Source: Nitrospirae bacterium CG2_30_70_394 (GTDB taxonomy: Bacteria; CG2-30-53-67; CG2-30-70-394). Taken from it: DNA of 37,422 nt. The stretch lies in contig MNYW01000099.1 in NCBI GenBank assembly GCA_001873295.1, forward strand, positions 1 to 37,422, read 5' to 3'. Below, one piece after another: positions 7,601 through 36,522 of the stretch. Every line of letters starts with the position of its first letter. Position 1 is the stretch's first letter. A model generated the notes under the pieces. That model was not told where the DNA came from, did no database searches, and saw nothing but the letters and a program-made list of their open reading frames with translations. Made by a program: the position numbers and the translations under genes.

Positions 7601-8534
7601 TGCACGCCTCCGGCAGACCGGGCCGGCGGGTGGGATCGTGGTCGTCGCAGTCGCCACCGCACACCGGCACGCCGTCGCCGTCGGCGTCGTGGTCGGTCGT
7701 CCACTGGACGCCGTCGCAGTTGGTGTCGAGGCCGTCGCACACCTCCACCGCCCCCGGGTGCACGGACGGCCGCGTGTCGTCGCAGTCCACCGCGCCGCAC
7801 AGGCCACCCTCGGTGGCGTAGCCGTCATGATCGACATCCGTACACACCGGGCAGTCCACCGCGCTCGGGTCGGCGAGGTCGATCAGGCCGTTGCAGTTGT
7901 TGTCGATCCCGTCGGTGCACAGCTCGGTCGCTACGGGGTTCACACCGGCGTGGAAGTCGTCGCAGTCCGCGCCGCCGCACACGCTATCCAGGTAGCCGTC
8001 GCCGTCGCGGTCGGGGCAGGTGCAGCCCACCTCATCCACCCTACCGTTGCAGTCGTTGTCCTTGCGGTCGCCGCACACCTCGACGCTTCCGGGGTAGACC
8101 GCCGGGTCGGTGTCGACGCAGTCCGAGGGCACGGCGCAAAAGAGGTAGCCGTCATGATCGAGATCCTGCTCGACCACCGGGATGACCCCGTTGCAGTCGT
8201 CATCGACGCCGTTGCACACCTCCGGGTTGCCGGGAAAGCGATTCGGGTCGCCGTCGTCGCAGTCGCCGTTACAGGCCGCGAAGCCGTCCCCATCGCGGTC
8301 CCAGTCGGTCGACGATTGGACCCCGTCACAGTTGGTGTCGAGGCCATCGCACACCTCCACCACCCCGGGATGGACCGCCCCATTGGCGTCGTTGCAGTCG
8401 GTGCCGCCACAGGCGAGATCGGCAAAGCCGTCGCCGTCCGCATCCACACAGGTCTGCGCATAGGACGCGGGTGGAACCACGATTCCGCAGACCAGCACGA
8501 ACGACCCGAGGATGAACTTGGTGATGGTGAACAT
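4617..8534 (-). CDS. Secreted MopE-repeat/multiheme cytochrome fusion (7 CXXCH, HYDIN-like domain, His-rich tail)
   Basis: 1305 residues. The ATG at 8534 has GAGGGGAG upstream and opens a signal peptide ending ASYAQ. About twelve MopE-type units (D-x-D-x-DG...DC-D...V-PG-x-E-x-C..G-D-x-x-C-G) fill residues 28-365 and recur between later domains. Four monoheme domains follow, with CISCH, CITCH, CVGCH and CVRCH near residues 388, 648, 845 and 983. Each is followed by a conserved Met (MPEG, SMASYL, TMSDYV, SMATYL) and a WI/WV..QGA-type ending, as in PSCyt1-like cytochromes. Between the first two lies a HYDIN/choice-of-anchor-D beta domain (VDFGVVTLG..., about 530-620). Three tandem repeats of about 60 residues at the C-terminus carry CRTCH, CLLCH and CVACH (near 1114, 1172, 1233), then a His/Asp/Trp-rich tail (HHHDHDRDD). 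Expected location: periplasm or cell surface. MopE repeats bind Ca2+ or other metals in known relatives. No enzymatic activity can be assigned. Confidence 0.88.
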   Translation of the reverse strand: MFTITKFILGSFVLVCGIVVPPASYAQTCVDADGDGFADLACGGTDCNDANGAVHPGVVEVCDGLDTNCDGVQSSTDWDRDGDGFAACNGDCDDGDPNRFPGNPEVCNGVDDDCNGVIPVVEQDLDHDGYLFCAVPSDCVDTDPAVYPGSVEVCGDRKDNDCNGRVDEVGCTCPDRDGDGYLDSVCGGADCDDFHAGVNPVATELCTDGIDNNCNGLIDLADPSAVDCPVCTDVDHDGYATEGGLCGAVDCDDTRPSVHPGAVEVCDGLDTNCDGVQWTTDHDADGDGVPVCGGDCDDHDPTRRPGLPEACNGLDDDCNGVVPQAERDLDNDGYFACQGDCMVYDPAIRPGAAEVCGDTIDQNCDGVDEPCAQPVDFPSQIQPLFDASCISCHFTGGEAPDLTAGNSYAALVGQAAGCAGQTLVVASNAAASYLVAKVQPDGVAPACGVKMPEGSGGLSTAQADLIARWIDEGALATTVDGDGDGYTADVDCNDANPTVNPGMAEIANNGLDDDCNRATPDSPGGDPYVAWVTASVDFGVVTLGATAAASAVVESTGSAELVITALTTSDPAFTVDTAALPLPAVVGVGATLTLPLLYTPSVAGNTTASLTLTSNAFNGGATVALLGTGYDATARVPYAAVQAIFDRSCITCHDASQVPDLRAGQSGSALLSTLPICPSTYYVVPGTGNSAASLLVQKVDPAVSPTCGGSMASYLAALDVATLTAWVAQGADAGNGLSVDADGDGYWAGIDCNDANGAVHPGAVEILFNGEDDDCDPTTIDNPVVDNDNDGWSSNFDCNDNDPAVNPGRVEVVENGIDDDCSPATPDVVRRLDFVADLQPIFTANCVGCHGPAAPIANLDLATGAGCANLVNGGYVVAGDRAASLLAAKVAVGGTMSDYVTLVEAERIAAWIDQGATCPPPVIDADGDGFEATVDCDDTNPNVNPGAAELPGNGIDDDCNASTPDLIPAVDFAASVQPIFTANCVRCHGGDAALSGLDLSAGVACANLYTGGYVVVNDRGASLLYQKVAAGGSMATYLSPAEAEVVGQWISQGAVCPAVADADGDGFDATVDCDDTNPNVNPGRVELAGNHLDDDCNPATVDTGLDATTLLSGKCRTCHADFSARVACTNEEWRHHRGGRVRPVEYLTVSLYLTGDSCTPRQQVDAAEALTTTCLLCHADLSAQVGCTNGRWRAHNGGRVSFAIFDAVNELLTGAVCASHDGEIDPRDELAITCVACHEDRSAHIDDQPAAYMRHAPGEDDLVSMPILKAVGEEVGGHDHWEGHRRWWRHRWEEKEHHHDHDRDD

Positions 8535-8633
8535 GCGCTCCCCTCTCGAACAAAAGGCCACGCGAGACGTGGCGAACTGGACCCGAACAGCGCGAGGCCA
8601 GACTCTCACCCTCGGCAACGCCGGATCACCGTT

Positions 8634-8649
8634 CGCAATCGCGGGGCCA
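8634..8649 (-). promoter_or_regulatory. Sigma-54-type promoter of the first MopE-heme gene
   Basis: Minus strand reads TGGCCCCGCGATTGCG: TGGC-C-C, 5 bp, TTGC. It differs from the TGGCAC-N5-TTGC consensus at one position and keeps the invariant GG and GC at the correct spacing. The predicted start is near 8623, giving a leader of about 90 nt to the ATG at 8534. Paired 16-bp dyads lie upstream. Confidence 0.65.
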
Positions 8650-8778
8650 TCGATGGCCGGCCGCTCGGTGATCGTGAGGCGCGCGCAGCACGACGACCCA
8701 TTGCCCGTCGCCCCAACGACTTTGCCCACCCGGCGATTGCGGCGGCGGCTCCAACGCGCCGCAAGGCGAGCAGCCCGG

Positions 8779-8816
8779 TGCGTGATTTCGCCCACCCCCC
8801 TGCGCCGTTTCACGCA
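8779..8816 (-). promoter_or_regulatory. Tandem dyads upstream of the sigma-54 promoter (putative enhancer sites)
   Basis: Two 16-bp imperfect dyads, TGCGTGATTTCGCCCA (8779-8794) and TGCGCCGTTTCACGCA (8801-8816), start 22 bp apart. The pair centres about 175 bp upstream of the predicted transcription start near 8623. Both resemble the pairs at 12702-12739 and 20644-20680. The spacing of about two helical turns suits a dimeric bacterial enhancer-binding protein. Confidence 0.55.
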
Positions 8817-8983
8817 GCCTCGCGCCACCCCGCGCCGCGCGCCCCGCCGTGAGGGTAGGCGCCCCGCCCGCGCGCAGGAGCTTAAGAAGCGGTCGGACTC
8901 GCAGTCTGGCAGAGTGGAAGTCGATGGGATCGGGAACAGGCGGTTGGAGGGAGGCCGATCCGTTCTTCGCCCCGCCAACGACA

Positions 8984-9016
8984 ACGCCCCCGGGCCACGG
9001 CGTGACCCGGGGGCGT
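8984..9016 (-). terminator. Stem-loop terminator of the second MopE-heme gene
   Basis: An 11-bp perfect stem (ACGCCCCCGGG, 8984-8994, with CCCGGGGGCGT, 9006-9016) surrounds an 11-nt loop that can itself form CAC/GTG pairs. It lies 25 nt past the stop at 9042. The minus-strand sequence after it (TGTCGTTGG) is only weakly T-rich. Confidence 0.7.
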
Positions 9017-9041
9017 CTCCCCGCGACCTGCTGATGCGGGC

Positions 9042-12000
9042 CTACTGCTCCGCGCTCGGCCCCGGCCGCATGAAGCCGCGGTTGTGGTCGTGGCAGATCA
9101 TGCAGTAGGCGCCATCGTGGTGGCCGGCGTAGCTCCCACTGGCGTCGAAGTCGCCGGGCGCCATGCCGTCGTAGCGGTGGTGGTTGGTGAGGCTGTGGCA
9201 CGTCTCACAGATGTTCGCCTCGTGCGGCGCGCCGTCGGCGAGCGAGCCCGGGCCCGAGCGGCTGGTGTTCACCACCTTCGTCCCTTGCAGAACGCTCCCC
9301 GAGTTGAACTCACGCAAGAGCTTGCGGTTGTTGCCCACCTTGAACATCGGGTCGTGACAGTCGATGCACTTGAAGTCGTAGGTGTAGTGGCCCGAGGCGA
9401 ACGGGTTCTGCGCCGGATCCGAGGAGTGGGCGTCGCGCAGGCCGTGACACTTCTTGCACTCGGCGTTCGGGATCGGGGTGGCGAAGTTCACGTTCCCGCT
9501 GCTGTCCGGCGCGTGGCAGAACTGGCAGTTGTCGAGGAAGAACGGCGTGTTGTGCGGCGCCTGCGGCTCACCGCCGGTGGGCTTGAAGCCGTCGCTGTGG
9601 TGGTGACAGGTAATGCACGACTGGCTGTCGTGGTGGCCGACGTAACGGCCCGCCCCATCAAGATCGGAGGGGGCATCGCCCGTGCGCCGGTGGTGGTGGG
9701 TCCGCGTGTGGCACGTCTCGCAGATGTTCTCGAGGTGCGGCGGGCCGTCGGCGAAGGAGCCGGGACCGGCGGCGTTGGTGAACTCCACGAAGCTCTCGTG
9801 GTGCTCTCCGGTGGCCGCGTTATCGAAGCAGATGTACTCCTTGACCAGCTTGCCGTAGCTGGTGCCGAAGGCGCGGTTCTGCTCCTGCTGGTGCGGGTTG
9901 TGGCAGGTGATGCAGTGCATCCCCCAGGTGCCGTACTTCTCCCCCAGGACGGTGGAGGCGTGGGTCTGCACGTTCGGCGCCGAGCCGAAACCGTACGGCC
10001 AGGGCAAGGGGTACTGAACCTTCAAAATCCCGTTCTCCGGATCGGAGGGGTTGGTCGAGTCGGCGTGGCAGCGCTGGCAGAGGAAGCGCGCATCGGGCAC
10101 GCCGTCCTGCGGGCCGTTTAGCGAGCCGTGGCACTTGCCACAGCGCAGGGCGGCGTTGTCGGGATGGACCGTGTCATCCGGGCTGAGCAGGGTGCCGAGG
10201 TGGGGCGGGTCCCGCGGGGTAGTCTTGGTGCTGCAGGTCGGCGGCGCACACCGGCCATCGGCGGCGTCGATCATGGAGTTGCAGTCGTTGTCCAACCCGT
10301 CGGTACACACCTCGATGTTGCCCGGGTAGACCGCGGGGTTGGTGTCGTCGCAGTCGCCGGCGCAGATCGCCACGCCGTCATGGTCCGCGTCGACGTCGGT
10401 CGGCGCGGTCACCCCGTCGCAGTTGTTGTCGAGACCGTCGCAGATCTCCGTCATCCCCGGATTGACGAGGGGGTTGCCGTCGTTGCAGTCGGTCCCGCCA
10501 CAGGTGGCGTCCTTGTAGCCGTCGAGGTCGCCGTCGATGCAGCCGCTCAGGCAGTCGGCCTCGTCCGCCAGGTCGATCAGGCCGTCGCAGTCGTTGTCGA
10601 GGCCGTCGTTACAGATCTCCGGCGCCCCCGGGAAGGTGGTGGGGTTGTGGTCGTCACAATCGCCTTCACAGGTGGTGTGGGCATCGGCATCGGCGTCGGG
10701 GCAGATACAGCTCGTCTCGTCCAACACCCCGTCGCAGTTGTTGTCGACCCCATCGAGGCAGAGCTCGGGCGCCCCTGGGTAGGCCGTGTTGTCGTGGTCA
10801 TTGCAGTCCGGCGGGGTGTCGCAGCTCCGCACCCCGTCCCCGTCGGGGTCCCGCTCGCTGGCGGGGAGGATGCCGTTGCAGTCGTCGTCGACGCCGTTGC
10901 ACAGCTCGGTGGCACCGGGATGGACGGCCGCATCGGCGTCGTTGCAGTCGCCGGCGCACAGGGCCACACCGTCGCCGTCACCGTCGTGGTCGGTGGCCCC
11001 CACCACCCCGTCACAGTTGGTGTCCTTGCCGTCGCACACCTCGGTGGCGCCGGGATGCACCGCCGCATCGGCGTCGTCGCAGTCGATTAGGCCGCAGACC
11101 CCCCCGCTGGTGGCGTAGCCATCGTGATCGAGGTCGGCCGCCGCGCACGCCTGGCACGCAGCGGTGGCCCCGCAGGCTGCGTCGCCACAGTCGCTACTGC
11201 CGTTGCAGTCGTTGTCGAGGCCGTCGGCGCACACCTCGGGGCTCCCCGGGTAGACGGTGGCATTGGCGTCGTTGCAGTCGTCGCCGCCGCACGCCGCCAG
11301 GAGGTGGCCGTCGCCGTCCCCGTCCGGGCAGGTGCAACCCACCTCGTCCACCCCCCCGTCGCAGTTGTTGTCGAGGCCGTCGGCGCACACCTCAACATTC
11401 CCCGGGTAGACGGTGGCATTCGTGTCGTTGCAATCCGGCGGGGTGTCGCATTCCCGCACCCCATCCCCGTCCCCGTCCCGCTCGCTGGCGGGGAGGATGC
11501 CGTTGCAGTCGTCGTCGACGCCGTTACACAGCTCGGCGGCGCCGGGGTGGACCGCCGGGTCGGCGTCGTTGCAGTCGCCGGCGCACAGGGCCACACCGTC
11601 GCCGTCACCGTCGTGGTCGGTGGCCCCCACCACCCCGTCACAGTTGGTGTCGAGGCCGTCGCACACCTCGACCGCCCCCGGGTGGACCGCCGGGTTGTTG
11701 TCGGCGCAGTCGACCGCTCCGCAACCACCACCCTCGGTGGCGTAGCCGTCACCATCCGCGTCGGTACAGACCGGGCAATCCGTCGCGTCGGGGTCGGCAC
11801 GGTCGATCAGGCCGTCGCAGTCGTTGTCGATCCCGTCGGTGCACACCTCGCCCGCGCCCGGGTGGACCAGGGAGTCGTGGTCGTCGCAGTCGGTGCCACC
11901 GCAGCCGTGGTCCAGGTAGGTATCGCCGTCGAGGTCGGGACAGACGCAGCTCCCGTCATCCGTGAGGCCGTCGCAGTTGTTGTCCTTGTGGTCGCCGCAC

Positions 12001-12443
12001 ACCTCGACGCTTCCGGGGTAGATGGCCGCATCGAAGTCGTTGCAGTCGCCGCCACAGACCCCCGTGCCGTCCTTGTCGACGTCACGCTCATTCGCCGGCA
12101 CGTTGCCGTTGCAGTCGTTGTCCAGGCCGTCGCACACCTCGGGGGCGCCGGGGTGGACGGCGGCCTTGCTGTCGTCGCAGTCGCCGGCGCAAACCGCAAA
12201 TCCGTCGCCGTCGTTGTCGTGGTCGGTCGCCCACTGGACGCCGTCGCAGTTGGTGTCGAAGCCGTCACACACCTCCGCCGCCCCGGGGTGCACGGACGGT
12301 TTGGCGTCATTGCAGTCGGTGCCACCACAGGCGGAATCCGCGTAGCCGTCGCCGTCCGCATCCGGACAGGTCTGGGCGTAGGCGGTGGCGGGGCCGAGAC
12401 CGAGCAGCGCGAGGGTGGCGATCAACAGCAGCGGGCGGGCCAT
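9042..12443 (-). CDS. Secreted MopE-repeat/decaheme cytochrome fusion
   Basis: 1133 residues. The ATG at 12443 has GGAG upstream and a signal peptide ending ATAYAQ. The mature protein opens like its neighbour ending at 4617 (TCPDADGDGYADSACGGTDCND). Residues 25-745 hold about fourteen MopE-type Asp-rich, Cys-containing repeats. The last 370 residues carry ten heme sites in order: CGKCH, CQRCH, CITCH, CETCH, CITCH, CQFCH, CKKCH, CIDCH, CETCH, CMICH. Two modules are clear internal copies: ENICETCHTRTHHHRR...GHHDSQSCITCHHH and ANICETCHSLTNHHRY...GHHDGAYCMICHDH. Abundant His residues suggest bis-His ligation. The architecture points to a metal-stabilised stalk carrying a heme wire, secreted or at the cell surface. 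It has its own sigma-54-like promoter and terminator, so it is a single transcription unit. The 627-bp internal duplication within the repeat part makes assembly errors possible. Confidence 0.88.
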   Translation of the reverse strand: MARPLLLIATLALLGLGPATAYAQTCPDADGDGYADSACGGTDCNDAKPSVHPGAAEVCDGFDTNCDGVQWATDHDNDGDGFAVCAGDCDDSKAAVHPGAPEVCDGLDNDCNGNVPANERDVDKDGTGVCGGDCNDFDAAIYPGSVEVCGDHKDNNCDGLTDDGSCVCPDLDGDTYLDHGCGGTDCDDHDSLVHPGAGEVCTDGIDNDCDGLIDRADPDATDCPVCTDADGDGYATEGGGCGAVDCADNNPAVHPGAVEVCDGLDTNCDGVVGATDHDGDGDGVALCAGDCNDADPAVHPGAAELCNGVDDDCNGILPASERDGDGDGVRECDTPPDCNDTNATVYPGNVEVCADGLDNNCDGGVDEVGCTCPDGDGDGHLLAACGGDDCNDANATVYPGSPEVCADGLDNDCNGSSDCGDAACGATAACQACAAADLDHDGYATSGGVCGLIDCDDADAAVHPGATEVCDGKDTNCDGVVGATDHDGDGDGVALCAGDCNDADAAVHPGATELCNGVDDDCNGILPASERDPDGDGVRSCDTPPDCNDHDNTAYPGAPELCLDGVDNNCDGVLDETSCICPDADADAHTTCEGDCDDHNPTTFPGAPEICNDGLDNDCDGLIDLADEADCLSGCIDGDLDGYKDATCGGTDCNDGNPLVNPGMTEICDGLDNNCDGVTAPTDVDADHDGVAICAGDCDDTNPAVYPGNIEVCTDGLDNDCNSMIDAADGRCAPPTCSTKTTPRDPPHLGTLLSPDDTVHPDNAALRCGKCHGSLNGPQDGVPDARFLCQRCHADSTNPSDPENGILKVQYPLPWPYGFGSAPNVQTHASTVLGEKYGTWGMHCITCHNPHQQEQNRAFGTSYGKLVKEYICFDNAATGEHHESFVEFTNAAGPGSFADGPPHLENICETCHTRTHHHRRTGDAPSDLDGAGRYVGHHDSQSCITCHHHSDGFKPTGGEPQAPHNTPFFLDNCQFCHAPDSSGNVNFATPIPNAECKKCHGLRDAHSSDPAQNPFASGHYTYDFKCIDCHDPMFKVGNNRKLLREFNSGSVLQGTKVVNTSRSGPGSLADGAPHEANICETCHSLTNHHRYDGMAPGDFDASGSYAGHHDGAYCMICHDHNRGFMRPGPSAEQ
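10854..11672. repeat. Internal direct duplication (627-bp period) in the MopE-repeat region
   Basis: Segments starting at 10854 and 11481 are nearly identical over about 190 bp, including a long exact run around 10950-11020 and 11577-11647. The offset of 627 bp equals 209 codons, so a block of about four MopE units has been duplicated in frame. At protein level the copies share stretches such as TNCDGVVGATDHDGDGDGVA and CNGVDDDCNGILPASERD. Confidence 0.8.
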
Positions 12444-12612
12444 GGCAGATCTCCAATCGAAACGGGGGGGGGAGATGGAGAGCAAAAGGCGCCTCAAGCC
12501 TGCCCGGGAAATCGCCGTCGGCATCGATACCACGGCCCCCTCGGGTTCCGCTCGCTCGCACCTCTGCCTCCTCCTGGGGCTGAGTCCATCCGTGGCTCAG
12601 CGACTAAGACTG

Positions 12613-12628
12613 TGCAGGTTGTATGCCA
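12613..12628 (-). promoter_or_regulatory. Sigma-54-type promoter of the second MopE-heme gene
   Basis: Minus strand reads TGGCATACAACCTGCA: TGGCA, then CTGCA at the correct distance, with the GG (-24) and GC (-12) dinucleotides conserved. The predicted start is near 12602, giving a leader of about 160 nt. Two 16-bp dyads lie about 118 bp upstream of that start. Confidence 0.6.
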
Positions 12629-12701
12629 GCGGGAATGGAGTGACAACGGGTCGGTCTGAAAAGAGTTCAGCACGCCCCCGCATCCGGAGGTGCGCATCGC
12701 C

Positions 12702-12739
12702 TGCGCGGTATCGCGCACCCCGCTGCGCGATACCGCGCA
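12702..12739 (-). promoter_or_regulatory. Paired dyads/perfect 16-bp hairpin: putative enhancer sites, possible terminator
   Basis: TGCGCGGTATCGCGCA (12702-12717) and TGCGCGATACCGCGCA (12724-12739) are perfect reverse complements, and each is also an imperfect dyad (TGCGCG-N4-CGCGCA). They start 22 bp apart. The pair centres near -118 relative to the predicted sigma-54 start for the gene at 12443, a typical enhancer distance. It also lies 28 nt past the stop of the 11-heme gene, so the hairpin may help terminate that operon, but no T-tract follows it on the minus strand. Confidence 0.6.
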
Positions 12740-12766
12740 AACGCGACCCGCCCACGGCCCCTAGGG

Positions 12767-14443
12767 CTACGGGTAGACCGACGGGAGGTGGTCCTTGCCG
12801 TGGCAGCTCAGGGTGCACTGGCCGGCGAAGGTGCCGTTGTCCTGGAACGCCAGGGTCCCGAGGTAAGGGGTGACGATGGCGGTGTCGAAGTTGATCAGGT
12901 GGCTGTTGTGGGCGGCGTCGCCTTGGGTGGCGCTGATCCCGTGGGCGTCGTGGCAGACCGAGCACGGCGCGTTGACCGTCACCCCGAGGTGGAGGGCGTG
13001 GGTGGGGAAGCTCTGATTGGCGAGGATGCTGGTCCGATCGTGGCACTTGTAGCAGAGGGCGTAGGCGGTGGCGGACTCCGCCGTACCGTCGGCAACGACG
13101 TACTCGCGCTCCAACAGAAAGGGGTAGATCGAGCCGTGCGGACCGGCCGGCCCGGCGCCGCCATTGCCCGGGCCACTGTCGCTGGCGTGGCAATCGGTGC
13201 AGTAGACGAGGCTGCTGGTGTTCCACGGGGAGAGCAGACTCGGGACGTTGAGGTTGGTTCCCGGCCACTCCACCGGGTGGAACGACGGGTTGTTGCGGTC
13301 GAACTCCAGGCGGGTGTTGGTCTGCAGGAGCTGGCGGGAGATCGCGGCGGCGCCGTTGGCCGTGTCGCCGTGGCACTTGAAACACACCTCGTACTGGTTC
13401 GTGGCGGGGGTGGCGGGGGTGCCGAGATCGGTGATCCCGGAAACCCCGGCCAGCGCTCCGCTGGCGGCCGGCACCTGCGCGGTGGTGGCGTTGGCGGCGT
13501 GGGGGTTGTGGCAGTCGACGCACTCCACGTGGCGCGCCATGGTGGCGGAATCCTCGGTGGGGTCGTGGACCCCGAAGGTGGTCTCTACCGGGTGGTGATA
13601 TGGCTTTTGCTGGTCCGCCACGACGCTCTTGAAGGAGACGTGGCCGTTGTGACAGACGAGGCAGTTGTCCTCCTCGGTGTCGGAGCGCAGGAGGCGGCGG
13701 GAGCTGCCGGCGTTGTGCGGGCTGTGGCAGTTTTCGCAGGCGTTGGCGGCGACCGTGGTCTCGGTGGAGTTTGGCCACGGGTCCGGGGGGGTGGAGTCCC
13801 ACACCTCCTGGGAGGTGGCGTGGGCGGCGGCAAGCCACCCCACCGGGTCGTGGCAGGTGGTGCACAGGGCCGAGGCGAGGTTCGGCTTGCGCAGGAAGTG
13901 GCCGGCCGCGTCGTCGTGGGGGTCGTGGCAGCTCGTGCACTGCACCAGCCCCGCCGGGTCGAGGGGGAGGTCGAGGAGGGCGGCCTGGACGTAGCCGGGG
14001 AGGGTGGTCGGATACGCCATGGAGACCGGGTGGTCATCCTGGAGATCGGTGTCAAGGAAGGCGGGGCCGGCGTTCAGGTTCTCCAGACCGGTGGGAAAGG
14101 CGATCGGCGCCGGCCGGCTTCTGACCTCGCCGAGGGCGATGGTGCCGTCGTGGCACGACAGGCAGAGCTTCGAGCTGCCGGTCGGCTGGCCGGGCGCGTT
14201 CTGGAGGGTTGAGCTGGTGTAGGTGATGTAGCTGGCAACGGACTCGTTGCGGTTCCACAAGACGCCAACGCCGCTGGACTCGTGGGGGGTGTGGCAGAAG
14301 ACACACACCTCCTCCTCCACCAGCGATTTGTACGGGCCGGGGCCGGAGACCGACAGGTTGTGCTTCGAGTCAACCACCGACATGGAGCGCGCCGGCGGGG
14401 CGAGGAGGGTGAGGAGGGCGGACAACAAGACCGCGAGCTTCAT
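12767..14443 (-). CDS. Secreted 11-heme c-type cytochrome (doubled-CXXCH family) with an extra CX3CH
   Basis: 558 residues. The ATG at 14443 overlaps the preceding lipoprotein stop (ATGA). The signal peptide is MKLAVLLSALLTLLAPPARS. Eleven CXXCH motifs are visible: CVFCH (47-51), CLSCH (94-98), CTSCH, CTTCH, CENCH, CLVCH, CVDCH, CFKCH, CTDCH, CYKCH, CSVCH. A further CTLSCH (543-548) has three residues between the cysteines. CHTPH and CHDPH pairs mark the doubled-CXXCH/cytochrome c3-like family. The N-terminal half is homologous to the 241-residue tetraheme cytochrome at 19687 (LLWN.../PTG.SKLCL.CHDGT, then HP.S..Y). It is the last gene of a coupled run with a pentaheme lipoprotein, a beta-barrel and an NHL lipoprotein. 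It is a good candidate for the outer-face component of an electron conduit, or for a filament-forming cytochrome; which of these cannot be decided from sequence. Confidence 0.9.
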   Translation of the reverse strand: MKLAVLLSALLTLLAPPARSMSVVDSKHNLSVSGPGPYKSLVEEEVCVFCHTPHESSGVGVLWNRNESVASYITYTSSTLQNAPGQPTGSSKLCLSCHDGTIALGEVRSRPAPIAFPTGLENLNAGPAFLDTDLQDDHPVSMAYPTTLPGYVQAALLDLPLDPAGLVQCTSCHDPHDDAAGHFLRKPNLASALCTTCHDPVGWLAAAHATSQEVWDSTPPDPWPNSTETTVAANACENCHSPHNAGSSRRLLRSDTEEDNCLVCHNGHVSFKSVVADQQKPYHHPVETTFGVHDPTEDSATMARHVECVDCHNPHAANATTAQVPAASGALAGVSGITDLGTPATPATNQYEVCFKCHGDTANGAAAISRQLLQTNTRLEFDRNNPSFHPVEWPGTNLNVPSLLSPWNTSSLVYCTDCHASDSGPGNGGAGPAGPHGSIYPFLLEREYVVADGTAESATAYALCYKCHDRTSILANQSFPTHALHLGVTVNAPCSVCHDAHGISATQGDAAHNSHLINFDTAIVTPYLGTLAFQDNGTFAGQCTLSCHGKDHLPSVYP

Positions 14444-15474
14444 GGCTGCGCCTCGGGAAGGAGCTGGTAGATCTGGATGCGGTGGTTGTAGGTATCGGCG
14501 ACGTAGACGCGATCGTGGGCGTCGATGGCAATCCCGGACGGCAGCCACAAGGAGGCGGCGTCGCTCCCCGAGTGGGCGAAGGCGAGGAGCGGCGCGCCGG
14601 TGCGCGCCAGGACCTGGACGTTGTCGAACAGGGCGTCGACCACCAAGAGGTGGTCCAGGGAGTCCACCGCCACCCCCTTCGGCTTGCTGAAGGTGCCCGG
14701 ACCGTCCCCCAACCGGCCAATCACCGCCAGGGAACGGCCCGCTGGATCGAGGATCTGGATCCGGAAGTTCATCGCGTCGGTGACATAGAGGTTGCCGTGG
14801 CGATCCAACGCCAGGTGGGTGGGAAAGTTGAACTCCCCCGCCTTGGCGCCGCGGCCGCCGATCACCCGCACCACCTGCCCATCCGGCCCAAAGACCACCA
14901 CCTGGTGGCGGGTGGTGTCCGCCACGTAGATGCGATCGCGCTCGGTATCGACCGCGATCCCCGTCGGCCGATCGAGGAGGCCGCCACTCCCCAGCTCCCC
15001 CAGGGAGCGACCCTTGAGATCGAAGCGCAGAACCTGGCCGAGGACCGAGTCGCTCACCAGGAGGTGGCCGTGGCCGTCGAGCGCCGCGTCGATCGGCGAC
15101 GGCAGGCTGAGGTGGTCGTCGCTGGGGATGCGCTGGATCCGATGGTGGAGGGGATCGAGGAGCAGGACGCGGCGCGCCCCCGGGTCGGTGACCAGCAGGC
15201 GGCCATCTTCCAGACACTCGATGCCCATCGGCCGGGTGAGGAGGCTCTCCTGGCGATGGCCAAGGACCGTGTCGACCACCCTCCCCCACCAGCCTCGCTG
15301 GATGCCGAGATCCACCTCGTGGCGAATCTCCCCGACCCGCTGCACCCGCGCCGGTTGGGGCAATGGCGGCCAGTTGACCGTCTCCGGCGCCGGCGGCGGG
15401 ACGGTGGCACAGGCCACAGAGAAGAGGAGGGCGGCGACTGGGGCCCACCCCATGCAGGTTGACCGGCGAGGCAC
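14440..15474 (-). CDS. Six-bladed NHL-repeat beta-propeller lipoprotein
   Basis: 344 residues from a GTG at 15474, 10 bp after the beta-barrel stop. From here the leader is MPRRSTCMGWAPVAALLFSVAC, which gives a basic n-region and a lipobox-like FSVAC with the cysteine at residue 22. The internal ATG at 15453 is an alternative start with no visible ribosome site. Six NHL blades follow, each with a P.GI..D....-Y/L-V.D...-R/Q-V core (for example RPTGIAVDTERDRIYVADTT and FPTHLALDRHGNLYVTDA). Propellers of this type bind proteins or sugars and usually lack catalysis. It is coupled by ATGA overlap to the 11-heme cytochrome and lies just after the beta-barrel, so it probably acts as a periplasmic or surface scaffold for the cytochrome. 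NHL proteins also neighbour cytochrome nanowire genes in Geobacter, as recalled from general knowledge. Confidence 0.85.
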   Translation of the reverse strand: MPRRSTCMGWAPVAALLFSVACATVPPPAPETVNWPPLPQPARVQRVGEIRHEVDLGIQRGWWGRVVDTVLGHRQESLLTRPMGIECLEDGRLLVTDPGARRVLLLDPLHHRIQRIPSDDHLSLPSPIDAALDGHGHLLVSDSVLGQVLRFDLKGRSLGELGSGGLLDRPTGIAVDTERDRIYVADTTRHQVVVFGPDGQVVRVIGGRGAKAGEFNFPTHLALDRHGNLYVTDAMNFRIQILDPAGRSLAVIGRLGDGPGTFSKPKGVAVDSLDHLLVVDALFDNVQVLARTGAPLLAFAHSGSDAASLWLPSGIAIDAHDRVYVADTYNHRIQIYQLLPEAQP

Positions 15475-15484
15475 GTGCGGGCGC

Positions 15485-17443
15485 CTAGAACCGTTTGCGC
15501 AGGCGAAGGAAGAGACGGTTGTTTTCATCGTGGCCACTGATATCCGAGTCAATGTAGTCCTGCGTATCCACCATGCTGATCTCGATCAGCCGGTAACGAA
15601 GATTGCCTTCAAGCTGAAAGCGCAGGCCGGTGAGCTTATCCGCGATCTGCTCGCGCTCGTCGTAGGTGGTCTGAAAGCTGAACCGGGCGAAGCGGCGCGG
15701 GTACCAGTCGGCCCGGGCCATCGCAGTCTTGCCCGCGAAGCTCTCCGCCAAAGCCGGGTAGGTGGTCCGCGTCCACGCCCCGGCGATCGCGACCGCCACC
15801 GTGGACGAGGGCCGCAGGGTGATCGTCTGGCGCGCCTGCACCCGGTCGTAGGGGGAGCTCGGGTTCTCCTGTTTCTCGTACGACACCTCGCTCGTCGAGA
15901 TGCCGCGGCTCAGGCGCGCCCCCACGTTGGTGCCGGTGGACGACTGGAAACGCAGGCTGCTGGCCTCCCCACTTTGCAGATGGACGGAGCTGTGCGAACG
16001 ACTCGCGTAGACCGCCAGCCCCCAGTTGAAGGCGTAGGCGCCCCCCACGTTCCAGCCGTCGGTGAGGAAGGTGACGTCCGGCTGGGCGTGGACTTCGTAG
16101 TCGACGAGGACCGTGTCCCCCACCCGCAACCGGCCGCCGGGCACCAGCTCCAGGCGAGTCCAGTCGCCGACGGTCTCGATGCGGTAATCCAGGCCGTCGA
16201 TGTAGGGGAGGTTCCCGGTGGGATCGGTGACCACCACCGTCTCCACCAGGACACTCAACTCGTCGAGAAAGACCACCCCGTCGACCAGGAAGGTGTGGCG
16301 CTCGTCGATCGCCAGGCCGCGGCCGCCGAGCCCTTCCTCGCGGTTGAGGGTCCGATTCCCCCCCAGGCTCAGGGAGAGCGACCCTCCCGGAACCCGCTTG
16401 CGGTAGGCCCAGGCGAGGTCGCCGGAGACCTCGTCGTCGCGCCCCGCCTCGTTGATGTGCTGGTGGTCGGCGGCGAAGTCGAAGCTCGTCTCCAGGCTTT
16501 CGTAGAGCTGGTGCACCAACGATAGCGAGCTCTGGACGTCGGTGACCCGGCTCCCCGGCGAGCTCTGCCGGCGGGCCGCGGTCTGCAAGTGGGAATGGAG
16601 CCGCGGCGTGAATTTCCACCCGAAGCCACCGGCGACGTGCTCCTCCTGGAAGAGGAAGAGGCCGGTCTGGCGACTCGCCCCGGCGGACAGGTTGGCAGTA
16701 GCGCCATGGTCCGGGTCGAACCGGCCGCCGCTGGAGAGCTCGATCCGATGGGTCAGCAGGGGCTCGGTGGCGAAGCTCGAGTCGTTCTCGTTCAGGGTAT
16801 AGACCAGGCGCCCCTCGCCGCTCTCCCCCCGGTAGTCGGCCTGGTAGCGCGCCTCGGTCCGCTCCTCGTCCAGGGGAAAGGCCCCGCCTTGTTGCGTCGT
16901 TGCGCGCTGCAGGCTGAAAAAGGAGGGGATGCGCCGCTTGCGCAGATTGAGCCGCGCCCCCTCCAGCTCCGAGACCACCTCTTGCTGGGGGGTGAAGGCG
17001 CTGTCGGTGATGCCGGTGCGCCGCCGGGCAAAGAGGTCGACACCGTACGGGTGTTCCTGGAAGAGACCCAGATTGACCCCGTAGCCACGCAACAGGGCGT
17101 TGGTCTCCACGGAGTCCGACGATCCGCCGCTTTCGGTCGTCTCGTCGAGCTGCTGGAGCTCGACCTCCCCATCGACATCGAAGACCAGGAAGCGCGGGTG
17201 GTAGACGAAGCCGCGCCCCTCCATGGCGACCAGCTCCCGCCAACCGTTCTGGGTCGCGGTGCTGGAGGAGACCTCCCGGTCACCCGCCGGCGACTCCTGG
17301 ACGGCATGCTCGCGCTCGTACTCCAAATCGAGACGACCGCCGACCCCCTGGAGGACGATCCAGCCGAACTGGCGCGGGCGCGCCTCGCCAGCCACCGCGG
17401 TGCCGAGGAGAACGGCCATTAGCAAACTGAACCACCCCCTCAT
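15485..17443 (-). CDS. Outer-membrane beta-barrel, putative porin of a porin-cytochrome conduit
   Basis: 652 residues. The ATG at 17443 overlaps the upstream pentaheme lipoprotein stop (ATGA). The signal peptide is MRGWFSLLMAVLLGTAVAG. The mature protein consists of alternating amphipathic stretches rich in aromatic residues, Ser and Thr, with charged loops, and ends LFLRLRKRF, the terminal Phe typical of BamA substrates. A short globular-looking insert lies near residues 385-460 (VVFLDELSV, GDWTRLELVPGGRLRVGDTV). Length and context match the MtrB/PioB/OmbB-type porins that sheathe multiheme cytochromes across the outer membrane, although no sequence signature proves that family and no CXXC motif is present. 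The adjacent pentaheme lipoprotein and 11-heme cytochrome would be its inner and outer partners. The barrel call is strong; the conduit role is inferred. Confidence 0.8.
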   Translation of the reverse strand: MRGWFSLLMAVLLGTAVAGEARPRQFGWIVLQGVGGRLDLEYEREHAVQESPAGDREVSSSTATQNGWRELVAMEGRGFVYHPRFLVFDVDGEVELQQLDETTESGGSSDSVETNALLRGYGVNLGLFQEHPYGVDLFARRRTGITDSAFTPQQEVVSELEGARLNLRKRRIPSFFSLQRATTQQGGAFPLDEERTEARYQADYRGESGEGRLVYTLNENDSSFATEPLLTHRIELSSGGRFDPDHGATANLSAGASRQTGLFLFQEEHVAGGFGWKFTPRLHSHLQTAARRQSSPGSRVTDVQSSLSLVHQLYESLETSFDFAADHQHINEAGRDDEVSGDLAWAYRKRVPGGSLSLSLGGNRTLNREEGLGGRGLAIDERHTFLVDGVVFLDELSVLVETVVVTDPTGNLPYIDGLDYRIETVGDWTRLELVPGGRLRVGDTVLVDYEVHAQPDVTFLTDGWNVGGAYAFNWGLAVYASRSHSSVHLQSGEASSLRFQSSTGTNVGARLSRGISTSEVSYEKQENPSSPYDRVQARQTITLRPSSTVAVAIAGAWTRTTYPALAESFAGKTAMARADWYPRRFARFSFQTTYDEREQIADKLTGLRFQLEGNLRYRLIEISMVDTQDYIDSDISGHDENNRLFLRLRKRF

Positions 17444-18198
17444 TCGCCATCCCCCTCGGCGCCGTTCGCCGCCGGGTCGTCTGCGGTGGGCGGCAGGGCC
17501 ACCGGCGGCGGGGTCGCGGCGGGCGACCCGGCGGCGGGCGGCGGCTTCAGGAAGTAGCGGCGATCGCCACCGTGCGGGTCGTGGCAGGCGGTGCAGTCCA
17601 GCTGCTCCTTCGCCTGGGCGTGATACGCGGTGGCGTAGAGCTGCTCCGCCTGATGGCAGCGCACGCACAGCTTGCGCACCGGCTGGTCGAGGACCATGAA
17701 CGGGCTTTGGGTCTGGTGCGGGCTGTGGCAGCGGACACACGCACCCGCCGCCACCGGGCCATGGACGAAGGGAAACCGCCGCCCCAGCTCCGCGAGTCGA
17801 AAGGGGACGTGGCAGTCGCGGCAGAGCTCGGTGACCGGCAGGCGGATCTTTGTCCCGAAAGCGGCCTGCCGGCTCCCCGCCTTCTGCCCTGGGATGTACA
17901 TCGACGGCCCGCCCGGACTCGCCAGGTGACAGGCGGTGCAGTTCTTCGAGGCGTACGGACCATGGCTATAGACCTGGAGAACCGCCGCCTCCGCTGCTGG
18001 CTTCTTGTCGCCCGCGGCGGCGGACTCATCCGCTGGGGCCTGCACCTCGCCGGGCCGCGGTACCCCGTCAAAGAAAAAGGCGAGGACGCGATACCGTTGC
18101 TCCGCCGCGCACCCCCCAACCGCCAGGCAGGTGGCGATCAGAAGGAGCGCGCCAATGGCGTGGTATCGCCGCAATGGAGCGCATGAAATCCGAGCCAC
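17440..18198 (-). CDS. Pentaheme c-type cytochrome lipoprotein
   Basis: 252 residues. The start is GTG at 18198, with GGGAG nine bases upstream; no in-frame ATG comes before the signal. The leader ends LAVGGC with the lipid-bearing cysteine at residue 30. Five heme sites follow: CTACH (87-91), CRDCH (126-130), CVRCH (154-158), CVRCH (178-182), CTACH (202-206), with the CHSPH and CHDPH signatures of cytochrome c3/NapC-like multihemes. The tail (about 215-252) is Pro/Ala-rich and probably disordered. It heads the coupled run lipoprotein cytochrome, beta-barrel, NHL lipoprotein, 11-heme cytochrome. By analogy with OmaB or MtrA it would sit on the periplasmic face of the barrel and pass electrons into it; this is inferred. 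Five hemes is fewer than in the known conduit cytochromes (8-12), so the conduit would be short or need another partner. Confidence 0.88.
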   Translation of the reverse strand: MARISCAPLRRYHAIGALLLIATCLAVGGCAAEQRYRVLAFFFDGVPRPGEVQAPADESAAAGDKKPAAEAAVLQVYSHGPYASKNCTACHLASPGGPSMYIPGQKAGSRQAAFGTKIRLPVTELCRDCHVPFRLAELGRRFPFVHGPVAAGACVRCHSPHQTQSPFMVLDQPVRKLCVRCHQAEQLYATAYHAQAKEQLDCTACHDPHGGDRRYFLKPPPAAGSPAATPPPVALPPTADDPAANGAEGDGE

Positions 18199-18298
18199 GG
18201 AAACAACTCCCCCCCCCCTGTGGGCCTACCCGGTGGACCGTCCTCCCTGCCAATCGGCGCACCCCAACCGCCGCTCAACCCGCGCCGTTGCTGCCTGC

Positions 18299-19435
18299 TC
18301 ACCGCATCCCCCCCTGGCCACCGCCCTCCTCCAGGGCGGCCGGGTTGGTGTAGACGGGAGGATACTTCTCGTGCTCCCCAAAGGCGTAGACCGCGACGTT
18401 GCCGGGGCCGTACTGATTGACCACCAGGATCATGAACTCTGCCTTGAACTCCTTGTCGACGCGGGAGTGGAAGTAGTCGGGAAGATCCGGGGTGATGGCG
18501 ACCGCGGTCGGCAGCCACATCAGCCCGGGGCGGCTGCCGGCGCCGCCGAAGAACATCAGAACCTTGCCCGCCGGGCTGAAGAGCTGGACGTTCTCGAACG
18601 CCGCATCCACCACATAGAGGCGGTCCGCCGGATCGATGGCGATCCCGCGCGGCCGGGCGAAGGCGCCGATCGCGTCGCCCGGGTTGCCGATCGTCTGCAG
18701 GAAGGTGCCGTCGGCGGCGAACTTGCTGATGTGCGCCTCCATCGAGTCGCAGACGTAGATGTTCCCCTGGCTGTCCACCGCCACCGAGATCGGCGCCACC
18801 AGATAGCCACCGGCCAACTCGTCACCCGCGCCGGGGTCTGCACGGCCGATCTCCTGCAGCAGCTTGCCGGTGTGGATGTCCCACACGTGCACCTGGTGGC
18901 CGCGGATGTCTGCCACGTAGAGGCGATCCCCCTTGATACACAGCCCCACCGGGCGGGATCCCTCCCCCGTGGTCCAGGCGCCAAGGTACTTCTCCTCCGC
19001 GCTGTAGCGGAGGACCTCGCCGCGCTTCGCGTCGGCCACGTAGACCGTCCCCTCCCCATCGACGGCGATGCCGGTGGGGCGCATAAGCGCCCCCTGCTCG
19101 CCGGTGGCGAGGGCGTGCATCTTGCGTTCTTTGAGATCAATCACCACCACGATCCCGAACTGGCCGTCGGTGACGAAGATCTTGTTGTCGTGGTACGCCG
19201 CCCCGTACGGATGGGCAAAGCGGAAGGTATCCGCCTTTCCCACCACCAGCTCCTGAAACTGGGACGGCGGTTTGATGTCCTCCATCCCCTGGAACCGGTA
19301 GAGGTACTGGATGCGCGGCGGGGTCGGGGGCTCGGGAAAGAAGAGGGTGGGGAGGGGCTTCTTGGCGCTCGTGCAGCCGGTGGCGACGACCACCCCGAGG
19401 AGCAGCGCGCGGCGAAGGGAGAGGGGAATCAGCAT
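18299..19435 (-). CDS. Second six-bladed NHL-repeat lipoprotein
   Basis: 378 residues from an ATG with GGAG eight bases upstream. The leader LRRALLLGVVVATGC ends in a lipobox with the cysteine at about residue 21. Six NHL-type blades are visible, for example MRPTGIAVDGEGTVYVADAK, APISVAVDSQGNIYVCDS and RPRGIAIDPADRLYVVDA. The last blade ends in an extended loop (about 325-350) before ILVVNQYGPGNVAVYAFGEH. It is a paralogue of the NHL lipoprotein ending at 14440. A gap of 100 bp separates it from the pentaheme lipoprotein, so it may be the first gene of the same operon. No strong promoter element was found in the 250 bp upstream. Likely a membrane-anchored scaffold facing the periplasm or outside; no catalytic residues are expected. 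Confidence 0.85.
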   Translation of the reverse strand: MLIPLSLRRALLLGVVVATGCTSAKKPLPTLFFPEPPTPPRIQYLYRFQGMEDIKPPSQFQELVVGKADTFRFAHPYGAAYHDNKIFVTDGQFGIVVVIDLKERKMHALATGEQGALMRPTGIAVDGEGTVYVADAKRGEVLRYSAEEKYLGAWTTGEGSRPVGLCIKGDRLYVADIRGHQVHVWDIHTGKLLQEIGRADPGAGDELAGGYLVAPISVAVDSQGNIYVCDSMEAHISKFAADGTFLQTIGNPGDAIGAFARPRGIAIDPADRLYVVDAAFENVQLFSPAGKVLMFFGGAGSRPGLMWLPTAVAITPDLPDYFHSRVDKEFKAEFMILVVNQYGPGNVAVYAFGEHEKYPPVYTNPAALEEGGGQGGMR

Positions 19436-19503
19436 GGATGGAGCTCCGGTGAACTGGCGTCCGCGTAACCACCGCGGCGCTGCAGGGGCCAACCCCCGCG
19501 CAT

Positions 19504-19545
19504 TCAAAGGCGCGCCAAGGGCGCAAGATTTCACCACGAAGGAGG
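19504..19545. repeat. Degenerate 'cgccaaggcgcaag' intergenic repeat
   Basis: TTCAAAGGCGCGCCAAGG followed by GCGCAAGATTTCACCACGAA belongs to the same loose family as the elements in the 1720-2270 spacer. It lies between the second NHL gene and the tetraheme terminator. Confidence 0.4.
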
Positions 19546-19613
19546 GGGCGGGGGCAAAGGTCTTGTACCCCATCCCTGCGCGCCGCGCCGCCGGCGTGGC
19601 GGACCGAACCCAG

Positions 19614-19647
19614 AAAAAAATCCCCGGCCGGTTGCCCGGCCGGGGAT
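19614..19647 (-). terminator. Rho-independent terminator of the tetraheme cytochrome gene
   Basis: On the minus strand, arms ATCCCCGGCCGG and CCGGCCGGGGAT (12 bp, perfect) enclose a 4-nt loop and are followed by a run of seven or more T residues (A-run at 19614-19620 on the plus strand). This is the clearest intrinsic terminator in the window, 40 nt past the stop at 19687. Confidence 0.93.
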
Positions 19648-19686
19648 CTCCTTCATCCGTTCACCCCGGAGGGGAACGAACCATCC

Positions 19687-20412
19687 CTACTTGATGTGGC
19701 AGGTGAGGCAGAGCTGCGAGGCACCGCCCGTGCTCGCCGTGGTGCCGACCCGCAGGAGGTGGGTATTTGCCACCGCCTCCTGGTCATGCACGTCGTGGCA
19801 AGAGGAGCACTGCACCAAGCCGTCCTCGAGGACGTCGACGATGAACACCGGGCCCATGGCGCGGGTGGTTGGATTCCACAGCCCCTGATCCGCAACGTTG
19901 TCGTACTTGATGGAGATCGGGTGGGTGTTGGAGAGGTTCTTGTCCGCTCCCACGTTGGCGATGCGCGGCACGGTGAAGCCACCGCCGCCGATGGTGGAGT
20001 CGGTGATGTAGAGGGTCTGGTAGCCGGCGCCGGTCTTGCCAACCTTGTTATCGAACTCGTCGATGGCGACCGTCCCGTCGTGGCAGCCGAGGCAGAGCTT
20101 GGAGATGCCGGTCGGCTCATTCTCCTGCTGCGGCGAGTCGAGGAAGTTGATGTGGGTGTCCTCGGCGTACATCAGGTAGGTGGCGCTGGAGAGCTGATGG
20201 TTCCACAACAGGCCGATGTCGCCGGTGTTCTTGCCGTGATCATGGGGCACATGGCAGACGCGGCAGATCTCACCGCGGTGGTTCCACGTGTCGGTGGCGA
20301 AGTCGTGGGGAGACCCTACGATGCCGTTGCCGGCGCCGTTTGCGAGGGCCGCGGTGGGGGCGAGCATGGTGGCCAAGGCCAGGCCGGCGGTGAGGGAAAG
20401 AAGGGATTTCAT
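19687..20412 (-). CDS. Secreted tetraheme c-type cytochrome, OmcE-sized
   Basis: 241 residues. The ATG at 20412 has a perfect AGGAGG eight bases upstream. Signal peptide: MKSLLSLTAGLALATMLAPTAALA. Heme sites: CRVCH (50-54), CLGCH (107-111), CSSCH (202-206), CLTCH (235-239). The opening SPHDFATDTWNHRGEICRVCH is typical of the doubled-CXXCH cytochrome family, and the protein is homologous to the N-terminal half of the 11-heme cytochrome ending at 12767. Length and heme count equal those of OmcE (four hemes, about 230 residues), a filament-forming cytochrome of Geobacter, but orthology cannot be shown here. The gene forms its own unit, with a consensus sigma-54 promoter, a strong ribosome site and a strong terminator, which suggests high regulated expression. 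It probably acts in the periplasm or as a secreted electron carrier. Confidence 0.92.
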   Translation of the reverse strand: MKSLLSLTAGLALATMLAPTAALANGAGNGIVGSPHDFATDTWNHRGEICRVCHVPHDHGKNTGDIGLLWNHQLSSATYLMYAEDTHINFLDSPQQENEPTGISKLCLGCHDGTVAIDEFDNKVGKTGAGYQTLYITDSTIGGGGFTVPRIANVGADKNLSNTHPISIKYDNVADQGLWNPTTRAMGPVFIVDVLEDGLVQCSSCHDVHDQEAVANTHLLRVGTTASTGGASQLCLTCHIK

Positions 20413-20508
20413 TTTGCTTCCTCCTAATGAGGTGTGGCCCGAGGGCCGTGGGTTGTGATGCATCTCCCGGAGTTGGGATCTGCGATTCGCGTTCGTTGGT
20501 CCGGCTAA

Positions 20509-20524
20509 AGCAACCCGCGTGCCA
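20509..20524 (-). promoter_or_regulatory. Consensus sigma-54 promoter of the tetraheme cytochrome gene
   Basis: Minus strand reads TGGCACGCGGGTTGCT, an exact match to TGGCAC-N5-TTGCW with GG at -24 and GC at -12. The predicted start is near 20498, leaving an 86-nt leader. An A/T-rich stretch (about 20540-20610) separates it from the upstream dyads and could aid DNA bending. Confidence 0.88.
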
Positions 20525-20643
20525 ACTCTCACCGCCGCCCCTATTTTTCCCCCTGATCGCCGTAACTATTAGAAAATCCTCATCCTCTCTCCATTTTCGA
20601 AAAACCGGGTAAGGCGCGAGGAAGCCTCGGTTGGGCCCGGGGC

Positions 20644-20680
20644 TGCGCGGTCTCACGCAGCCCCTGCGCGGGATGGCTCA
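20644..20680 (-). promoter_or_regulatory. Tandem dyads upstream of the tetraheme promoter (putative enhancer sites)
   Basis: TGCGCGGTCTCACGCA (20644-20659) and the weaker TGCGCGGGATGGCTCA (20665-20680) start 21 bp apart and centre about 164 bp upstream of the predicted start. The first is embedded in a 9-bp-arm dyad (20639-20647 with 20656-20664). The pattern matches the pairs upstream of the two MopE-heme genes. Confidence 0.6.
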
Positions 20681-36388: not shown

Positions 36389-36522
36389 CCCTCGCGTCTC
36401 CGCGCCTGGTCAGGCGCCGTCGTGGCGGGACCCTGTGAACCGGGTCAGGTCCTGGCGGAAGCAGCCCTAAGCAGATCGTCTCGGGTACGGCGGTCGCCTG
36501 GCCAGACTCGGGGACGCGAGGG
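36389..36522 (+). ncRNA. ffs: Bacterial signal recognition particle RNA (4.5S-like)
   Basis: The universally conserved domain IV is present: GGGTCAGGTCCTGGCGG followed by AAGCAGCCCTAAGCAG (about 36440-36472), which carries the Ffh-binding internal loops. The ends pair over 10 bp (CCCTCGCGTC at 36389-36398 with GACGCGAGGG at 36513-36522), giving about 134 nt, somewhat longer than the E. coli RNA and without an Alu domain. It forms the SRP with Ffh and targets membrane proteins. It is immediately upstream of dnaX, a placement known in several bacterial lineages. Confidence 0.93.

Follow-up and report, generated by a model that had tools for sequence, protein, structure and literature searches.

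The extracellular-type cytochrome genes in the window, i.e., the whole 37,422-nucleotide stretch of DNA analyzed, which is contig C138 of Nitrospirae bacterium CG2_30_70_394 (hereafter G000), very probably belong to a real sigma-54 enhancer regulon, as judged from their promoter sequences and backed by a second genome. As summarized in Table 1, a -24/-12 element and a pair of tandem dyads upstream of it were found at the promoters of an OmcE-type gene and of two genes for MopE-repeat proteins, and we hold with high confidence that the three pairs are the upstream activating sequences of one such regulon. G000 consists of 2.65 Mb in 182 contigs, and the order-level comparison comprised two genomes in total, G000 and G001, each of which gave one rpoN match (PF04552) above the cut-off; the genome-wide statements below derive from pattern and profile searches. 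The GC content of the window was 71%, and a bacterial small SRP RNA gene (Rfam RF00169) was located at 36408-36506 on its plus strand.

Table 1. Features of the cytochrome promoters and genes, and of the candidate activator (window coordinates unless a contig is named).
Feature	Position	Strand	Basis or remark
Tetrahaem cytochrome of the OmcE family with 4 CxxCH, opening the probable operon	19687..20412	minus	end-to-end matches to PDB 7tfs and 9yuq
NHL beta-propeller protein, probable omcE operon	18299..19573	minus	Pfam NHL; gene order kept in G001
Pentahaem cytochrome, lipoprotein-like, probable omcE operon	17440..18198	minus	counterpart in G001
Porin-like protein (approximate start), probable omcE operon	15485..17443	minus	open frame with signal-like start; assignment inferred
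NHL-like protein, probable omcE operon	14440..15552	minus	sequence reading
Multihaem cytochrome with 11 CxxCH, at the end of the probable operon	12767..14443	minus	counterpart at G001 L017:9270-10976
MopE-repeat protein, 10 CxxCH (decahaem)	9042..12443	minus	63% identical over 463 positions to G001 orthologue
MopE-repeat protein, 7 CxxCH (7-haem)	4617..8534	minus	sequence reading and domain search
Tandem dyads, omcE-type gene	20644..20680	minus	21-bp spacing; both dyads and spacing kept at G001 C27:2883-2919
Conserved block with GAGGATTTTCTAATAGTTACGGCGATCA, between omcE dyads and promoter	20554..20589	minus	near-identical in G001
-24/-12 element TGGCACGCGGGTTGCT, omcE-type gene	20509..20524	minus	exact; kept as TGGCACGCCAGTTGCT in G001
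Tandem dyads, decahaem MopE gene	12702..12739	minus	22-bp spacing; counterpart at G001 C132:5070-5106
Weak -24/-12 element TGGCATACAACCTGCA, decahaem MopE gene	12613..12628	minus	3 mismatches; TGGCACCTGGCTTGCT at similar distance in G001 orthologue
Tandem dyads, 7-haem MopE gene	8779..8816	minus	22-bp spacing; probable counterpart at G001 C27:21299-21335
Weak -24/-12 element TGGCCCCGCGATTGCG, 7-haem MopE gene	8634..8649	minus	3 mismatches; probable G001 counterpart TGGCACTAGAGTTGCT
EBP1, PAS-AAA+-Fis	G000 C37:22947-24302 (L007 5948-7306); G001 C65 about 7965-9320		domain search

The tetrahaem protein was matched to residues 7-232 of the OmcE filament cytochrome (PDB 7tfs) with an E-value of 2.9e-8. 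This end-to-end match places it, as a distant member in sequence, in the OmcE filament family; filament formation by it in G000 is a prediction. The omcE promoter probably drives the whole operon from this gene down to the multihaem cytochrome gene at 12767-14443, and the genes behind the omcE orthologue in G001 were of the same kinds; the porin-like protein gave no Pfam match.

The positions and spacings of the dyads were as given in the initial annotation, and so were the distances of the pair centers from the predicted transcription starts, which were about 175, 118 and 164 bp for the 7-haem, decahaem and omcE-type genes, respectively. The tolerance of up to four mismatches per site to TGCGYG-N4-CRCGCA, however, proved far too generous, as the actual mismatches within the pairs were 1/1 (8779/8801), 0/0 (12702/12724) and 0/2 (20644/20665). 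With four mismatches allowed, the search was unselective and gave 21 pairs in the window, whereas a limit of two or three left just the three promoter pairs, in line with the earlier statement that no other window gene is preceded by such a pair. Against TGNGYS-N4-SRCNCA, the best pair had 0 mismatches at all three promoters and at least 3 in 2,800 random 330-bp stretches of the window. Furthermore, the strict tandem pattern TGCGYS-N4-SRCNCA-N(4-16)-TGNGYS-N4-SRCNCA matched the whole of G000 exactly three times, at these promoters, and G001 twice, with 0 matches in the reversed control of either genome, so that the suggested genome scan found the pairs to be unique to the three promoters in G000. 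Since this pattern was drawn up with knowledge of the G000 sites and of the G001 omcE site, the out-of-sample results are the G001 match on C132 and the profile matches described below. No pair was found in six class-level genomes, which is a weak control because the sampled loci from two of them had a GC content of just 48-59%.

The -24/-12 elements differed in quality among the three promoters. The initial annotation was right in calling the element at 20524-20509 exact, and this element was also kept in G001, but those at 8649-8634 and 12628-12613, described as near-consensus, carried three mismatches each. Both retained the GG and GC, and an equally good site arose in 7-9% of shuffles of the same stretches. 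Taken alone they are thus weak, and they become credible mainly through G001, in which elements with a single mismatch stand at comparable positions before the decahaem orthologue and a MopE gene. Across the whole of G000, 41 sites matched the -24/-12 consensus with at most one mismatch, as compared with 16 in the reversed control, and by arithmetic from this count the chance of such a site near a random 150-bp stretch was about 0.2%, assuming that G001 is similar. When the 40 other G000 sites within one mismatch (one of them without upstream sequence) were inspected, a comparable upstream pair was present at a single gene, encoding the enhancer-binding protein (EBP) designated EBP1, where the mismatch total was 1, the totals at all the others being at least 3. 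Many of the other sites, such as C50:6988 and C36:19300, preceded genes for secreted-looking proteins, at least one of which has a CxxCH motif, without these dyads, and they read as further sigma-54 circuits.

The arrangement was also conserved in the relative, as the initial annotation had asked of a real regulon. At the G001 omcE gene, both dyads, the 21-bp spacing, the 30-bp block and the exact -24/-12 element were all kept, the inter-dyad spacer differed, and the encoded proteins were about 50% identical. In the conserved omcE block at 20554-20589, no known site, the IHF consensus included, was recognized by eye. The G001 pair at C132:5070 lies 83 bp upstream of TGGCACCTGGCTTGCT, a 1-mismatch -24/-12 element, ahead of the decahaem orthologue, which is identical to the G000 protein at 294 of 463 positions. 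A profile of the pairs, built from sequence only, yielded two further G001 sites blindly, with E-values (rough ones) of 0.005 and 0.007. One of them, C27:21299, is located 90 bp before TGGCACTAGAGTTGCT (one mismatch), followed by a MopE-repeat gene running off the contig; because a fragment on C132 resembles the C-terminus of the 7-haem protein, this gene is its probable, not certain, counterpart. The other, C4:14352, is located about 118 bp before TGGCATGAATATTGCT (one mismatch), followed by a gene for a PAS histidine kinase. The matches on C132, C27 and C4 were therefore each accompanied by a 1-mismatch element about 80-120 bp downstream. As a whole, the shared dyads lie about 80-200 bp upstream of promoter elements, as is expected of a sigma-54 enhancer-dependent regulon. 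The proposal of a three-promoter sigma-54 regulon was accordingly supported but too narrow, as the set extends to EBP1 itself and, in G001, to the histidine kinase.

Several other sites emerged from these searches. The near-perfect single site at C80:2884 appeared to lie inside a gene, and the lower-ranked profile matches on G001 C12 and C160 (below the top four) and on G000 C126 and C20 (below the known sites) had no suitably placed -24/-12 element. On G001 C27, a c-di-GMP-I-GGC riboswitch (Rfam; L139 1360-1443, minus strand) was detected divergent from the dyad-bearing MopE gene, on the strand of a gene for a small protein with three CxxCH motifs.

Two readings that dispense with an enhancer were weighed against these data. 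A chance likeness of loose palindromes in GC-rich DNA might be argued from the 21 window pairs obtained under the four-mismatch criterion and from the frequency with which shuffles match the two weak -24/-12 elements, but it is hardly tenable given the confinement of the strict pattern to these promoters genome-wide, the empty control and the blind confirmation in G001. It is also very unlikely that the dyads act as terminators of transcription or as RNA hairpins behind the upstream genes. Such a role is suggested by the 12702-12739 pair, which as a whole forms a perfect inverted repeat (16 bp) located 28 bp past a stop codon; nevertheless, no T-tract follows, and a terminator scan was empty at all three places. 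Moreover, the upstream gene in G001 is followed first by a terminator-like hairpin of its own, with a T-run, and only then by the dyads; the two omcE dyads are not mutual complements and yet both are kept, the blind matches hold a fixed relation to -24/-12 elements, and no Rfam element was matched at the three dyad promoters.

On the enhancer reading, an EBP would occupy each pair with two dimers placed on the same side of the helix, since the spacing of 21-22 bp corresponds to two helical turns and that of 30 bp at the gene for EBP1 to about three. The bound EBP would then loop to RNA polymerase-sigma-54 at the -24/-12 element, whereby the OmcE-type filament operon and the two MopE-type multihaem cytochromes would be switched on.

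The absence of an EBP gene, as initially annotated, holds within the window, but about 23 EBP matches were found in G000 as a whole, and the suggested search for an orphan candidate led to EBP1, which is unlinked to the cytochrome genes and has its own -24/-12 element and similar dyads. EBP1 has PAS_4, AAA+ (PF00158) and HTH_8 domains. Upstream of its gene in both genomes, two palindromes exactly 30 bp apart, less perfect than the cytochrome-promoter pairs and spaced differently from them, precede a -24/-12-like element (TGGCATGTCAGTTGCT; CGGTACGTATATTGCT). No pair as good was found at the other EBP loci scanned, EBP1 being the only one among them with the dyad motif in both genomes. We thus regard this one-component PAS-AAA+-Fis protein, which appears autoregulated, as the most likely binder of the pairs, with modest confidence. 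Beside EBP1 on G001 C65 (L019 1256-1440), the -24/-12 element TGGCACCCCCCTTGCA of a gene weakly matching multicopper oxidase lies behind two direct copies (17 bp) of GGCGACTACGGAAAACA, which may represent a different enhancer.

The two EBP1 orthologues differed markedly in their motor domains. The G001 protein has an intact Walker A motif (GETGTGKE) and GAFTDS, and looks competent, whereas that of G000 has GEAGTSKE and GGGPGS in place of GETGTGKE and GAFTGS, with the GEMP and ATNR stretches also altered. At 40 positions, G000 EBP1 departs from the residues that its three relatives share; most of these changes fall in the AAA+ domain, and the HTH is the best-conserved domain of EBP1 (88% identical). 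G000 EBP1 thus probably combines a dead motor with a DNA-binding domain that is still live; having no usable GAFTGA and an altered Walker A, it is a poor activator candidate there and probably cannot open sigma-54 complexes, so that the persistence of the sites in G000 would need EBP2, another EBP or residual EBP1 function. In G000, another activator, e.g., the intact EBP2, might drive the promoters, or EBP1 might act as a DNA-binding modulator. The presence of two weaker promoters in G000 than in G001 would fit such decay of the circuit.

These losses bear on a substantial alternative, not far behind an even chance in our estimation, according to which the pairs are sigma-54 enhancers for an EBP other than EBP1, whereby an unlinked EBP, possibly a histidine-kinase partner or EBP2, would control the cytochromes, EBP1 and the kinase. 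It is favored by the loss of the Walker A and GAFTGA residues in G000 EBP1, by the intactness of the paralogue EBP2 in both genomes (AAA+ domain 92% identical between them) with a related HTH, and by the inclusion of a histidine kinase in the G001 regulon together with the number of EBP matches in G000. On the other hand, the promoter of EBP2 itself lacks such dyads and its gene adjoins an SQR-like one, and the motif occurs in both genomes at EBP1 alone among the EBP loci scanned. EBP2-type PAS-AAA+-Fis genes (L020, L021, L124) were found divergent from or adjoining flavoprotein genes; that of G000 is SQR-like by a weak NCBIfam match, and EBP2 with this neighbor is possibly a FisR-like sulfide circuit.

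With EBP1 taken as the binder, its PAS domain offers leads to the signal. The residues C50, C61 and C68 were the same in all four proteins, i.e., EBP1 and EBP2 from G000 and G001, forming in EBP1 a conserved C-x10-C-x6-C motif with the first two Cys residues 11 apart, and the PAS domain of the G001 histidine kinase has the same C-x10-C start. Cys-rich PAS domains of this appearance are widespread, and hence the cysteine spacing, the SQR neighbor and the kinase PAS hint at a thiol or sulfane-sulfur signal rather than test for one. FisR of Cupriavidus and Acinetobacter is, like EBP1, a one-component sigma-54 activator (PMC9495516, PMC7315123). In Cupriavidus FisR, a tetrasulfide forms between Cys53 and Cys64 (PMC9495516), a spacing of 11 residues equal to that of C50 and C61 in EBP1, a likeness drawn from published residue positions; Acinetobacter FisR is without those cysteines (PMC7315123). 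Because of this shared spacing, EBP1 may respond to sulfane sulfur or to some other thiol/redox cue. The fisR gene is divergent from sqr genes, as EBP2 is from an SQR-like gene, but FisR targets are sulfide oxidation genes, whereas EBP1-type sites are located at cytochrome genes. We consider it rather unlikely that a FisR-like cysteine-switched activator was recruited to nanowire cytochromes and that its G000 form, the motor having decayed, now acts at those same enhancers as a competitor or repressor of an intact activator. If true, such a recruited activator would link sulfane-sulfur or redox sensing to electron export.

Neither this regulon nor its motif was found described in the literature searched. 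In Geobacter sulfurreducens, sigma-54 control reaches the cytochromes of extracellular electron transfer with the same -24/-12 consensus; for its OmcE-type genes, by contrast, the RpoN regulon as described contains no EBP regulon of their own defined by dyads, omcE and omcS being absent from the main text of that report (PMC2725144). For a multihaem cytochrome system of Desulfovibrio, DVU3142-ohcBAC, a sigma-54 circuit with one EBP has been predicted, and EBP regulons there are small, typically comprising one to four operons (PMC4641369). That complex is a periplasmic octahaem one, and the EBP gene and its target diverge from each other, whereas here the cytochromes are of the extracellular type and the candidate EBP is unlinked. 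In unrelated lineages, -24/-12-like elements were located upstream of omcE-like genes (L048, L049, L053, L054 and L058), an exact match being seen in L054 and, among the loci of other phyla, in one Hydrogenophilales MAG, though the TGCGYG dyads were not found ahead of such genes in other phyla. Among the other-phyla genomes with omcE, full-length EBP1-like proteins were clear only in the Hydrogenophilales genome (three, with 43-46% identity), in which the omcE upstream region has no TGCGYG dyads.

Outside Geobacter, how the timing of cytochrome filament building is decided is poorly known. The occurrence of sigma-54-like elements before omcE-like genes in several unrelated lineages raises the possibility that cytochrome filaments are widely under enhancer control. 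In the compact regulon described here, a precise DNA code would place an OmcE-type operon and two cytochromes of the MopE type under a single sigma-54 enhancer, and the regulon draws attention to a specific regulator whose cysteines form a candidate switch.
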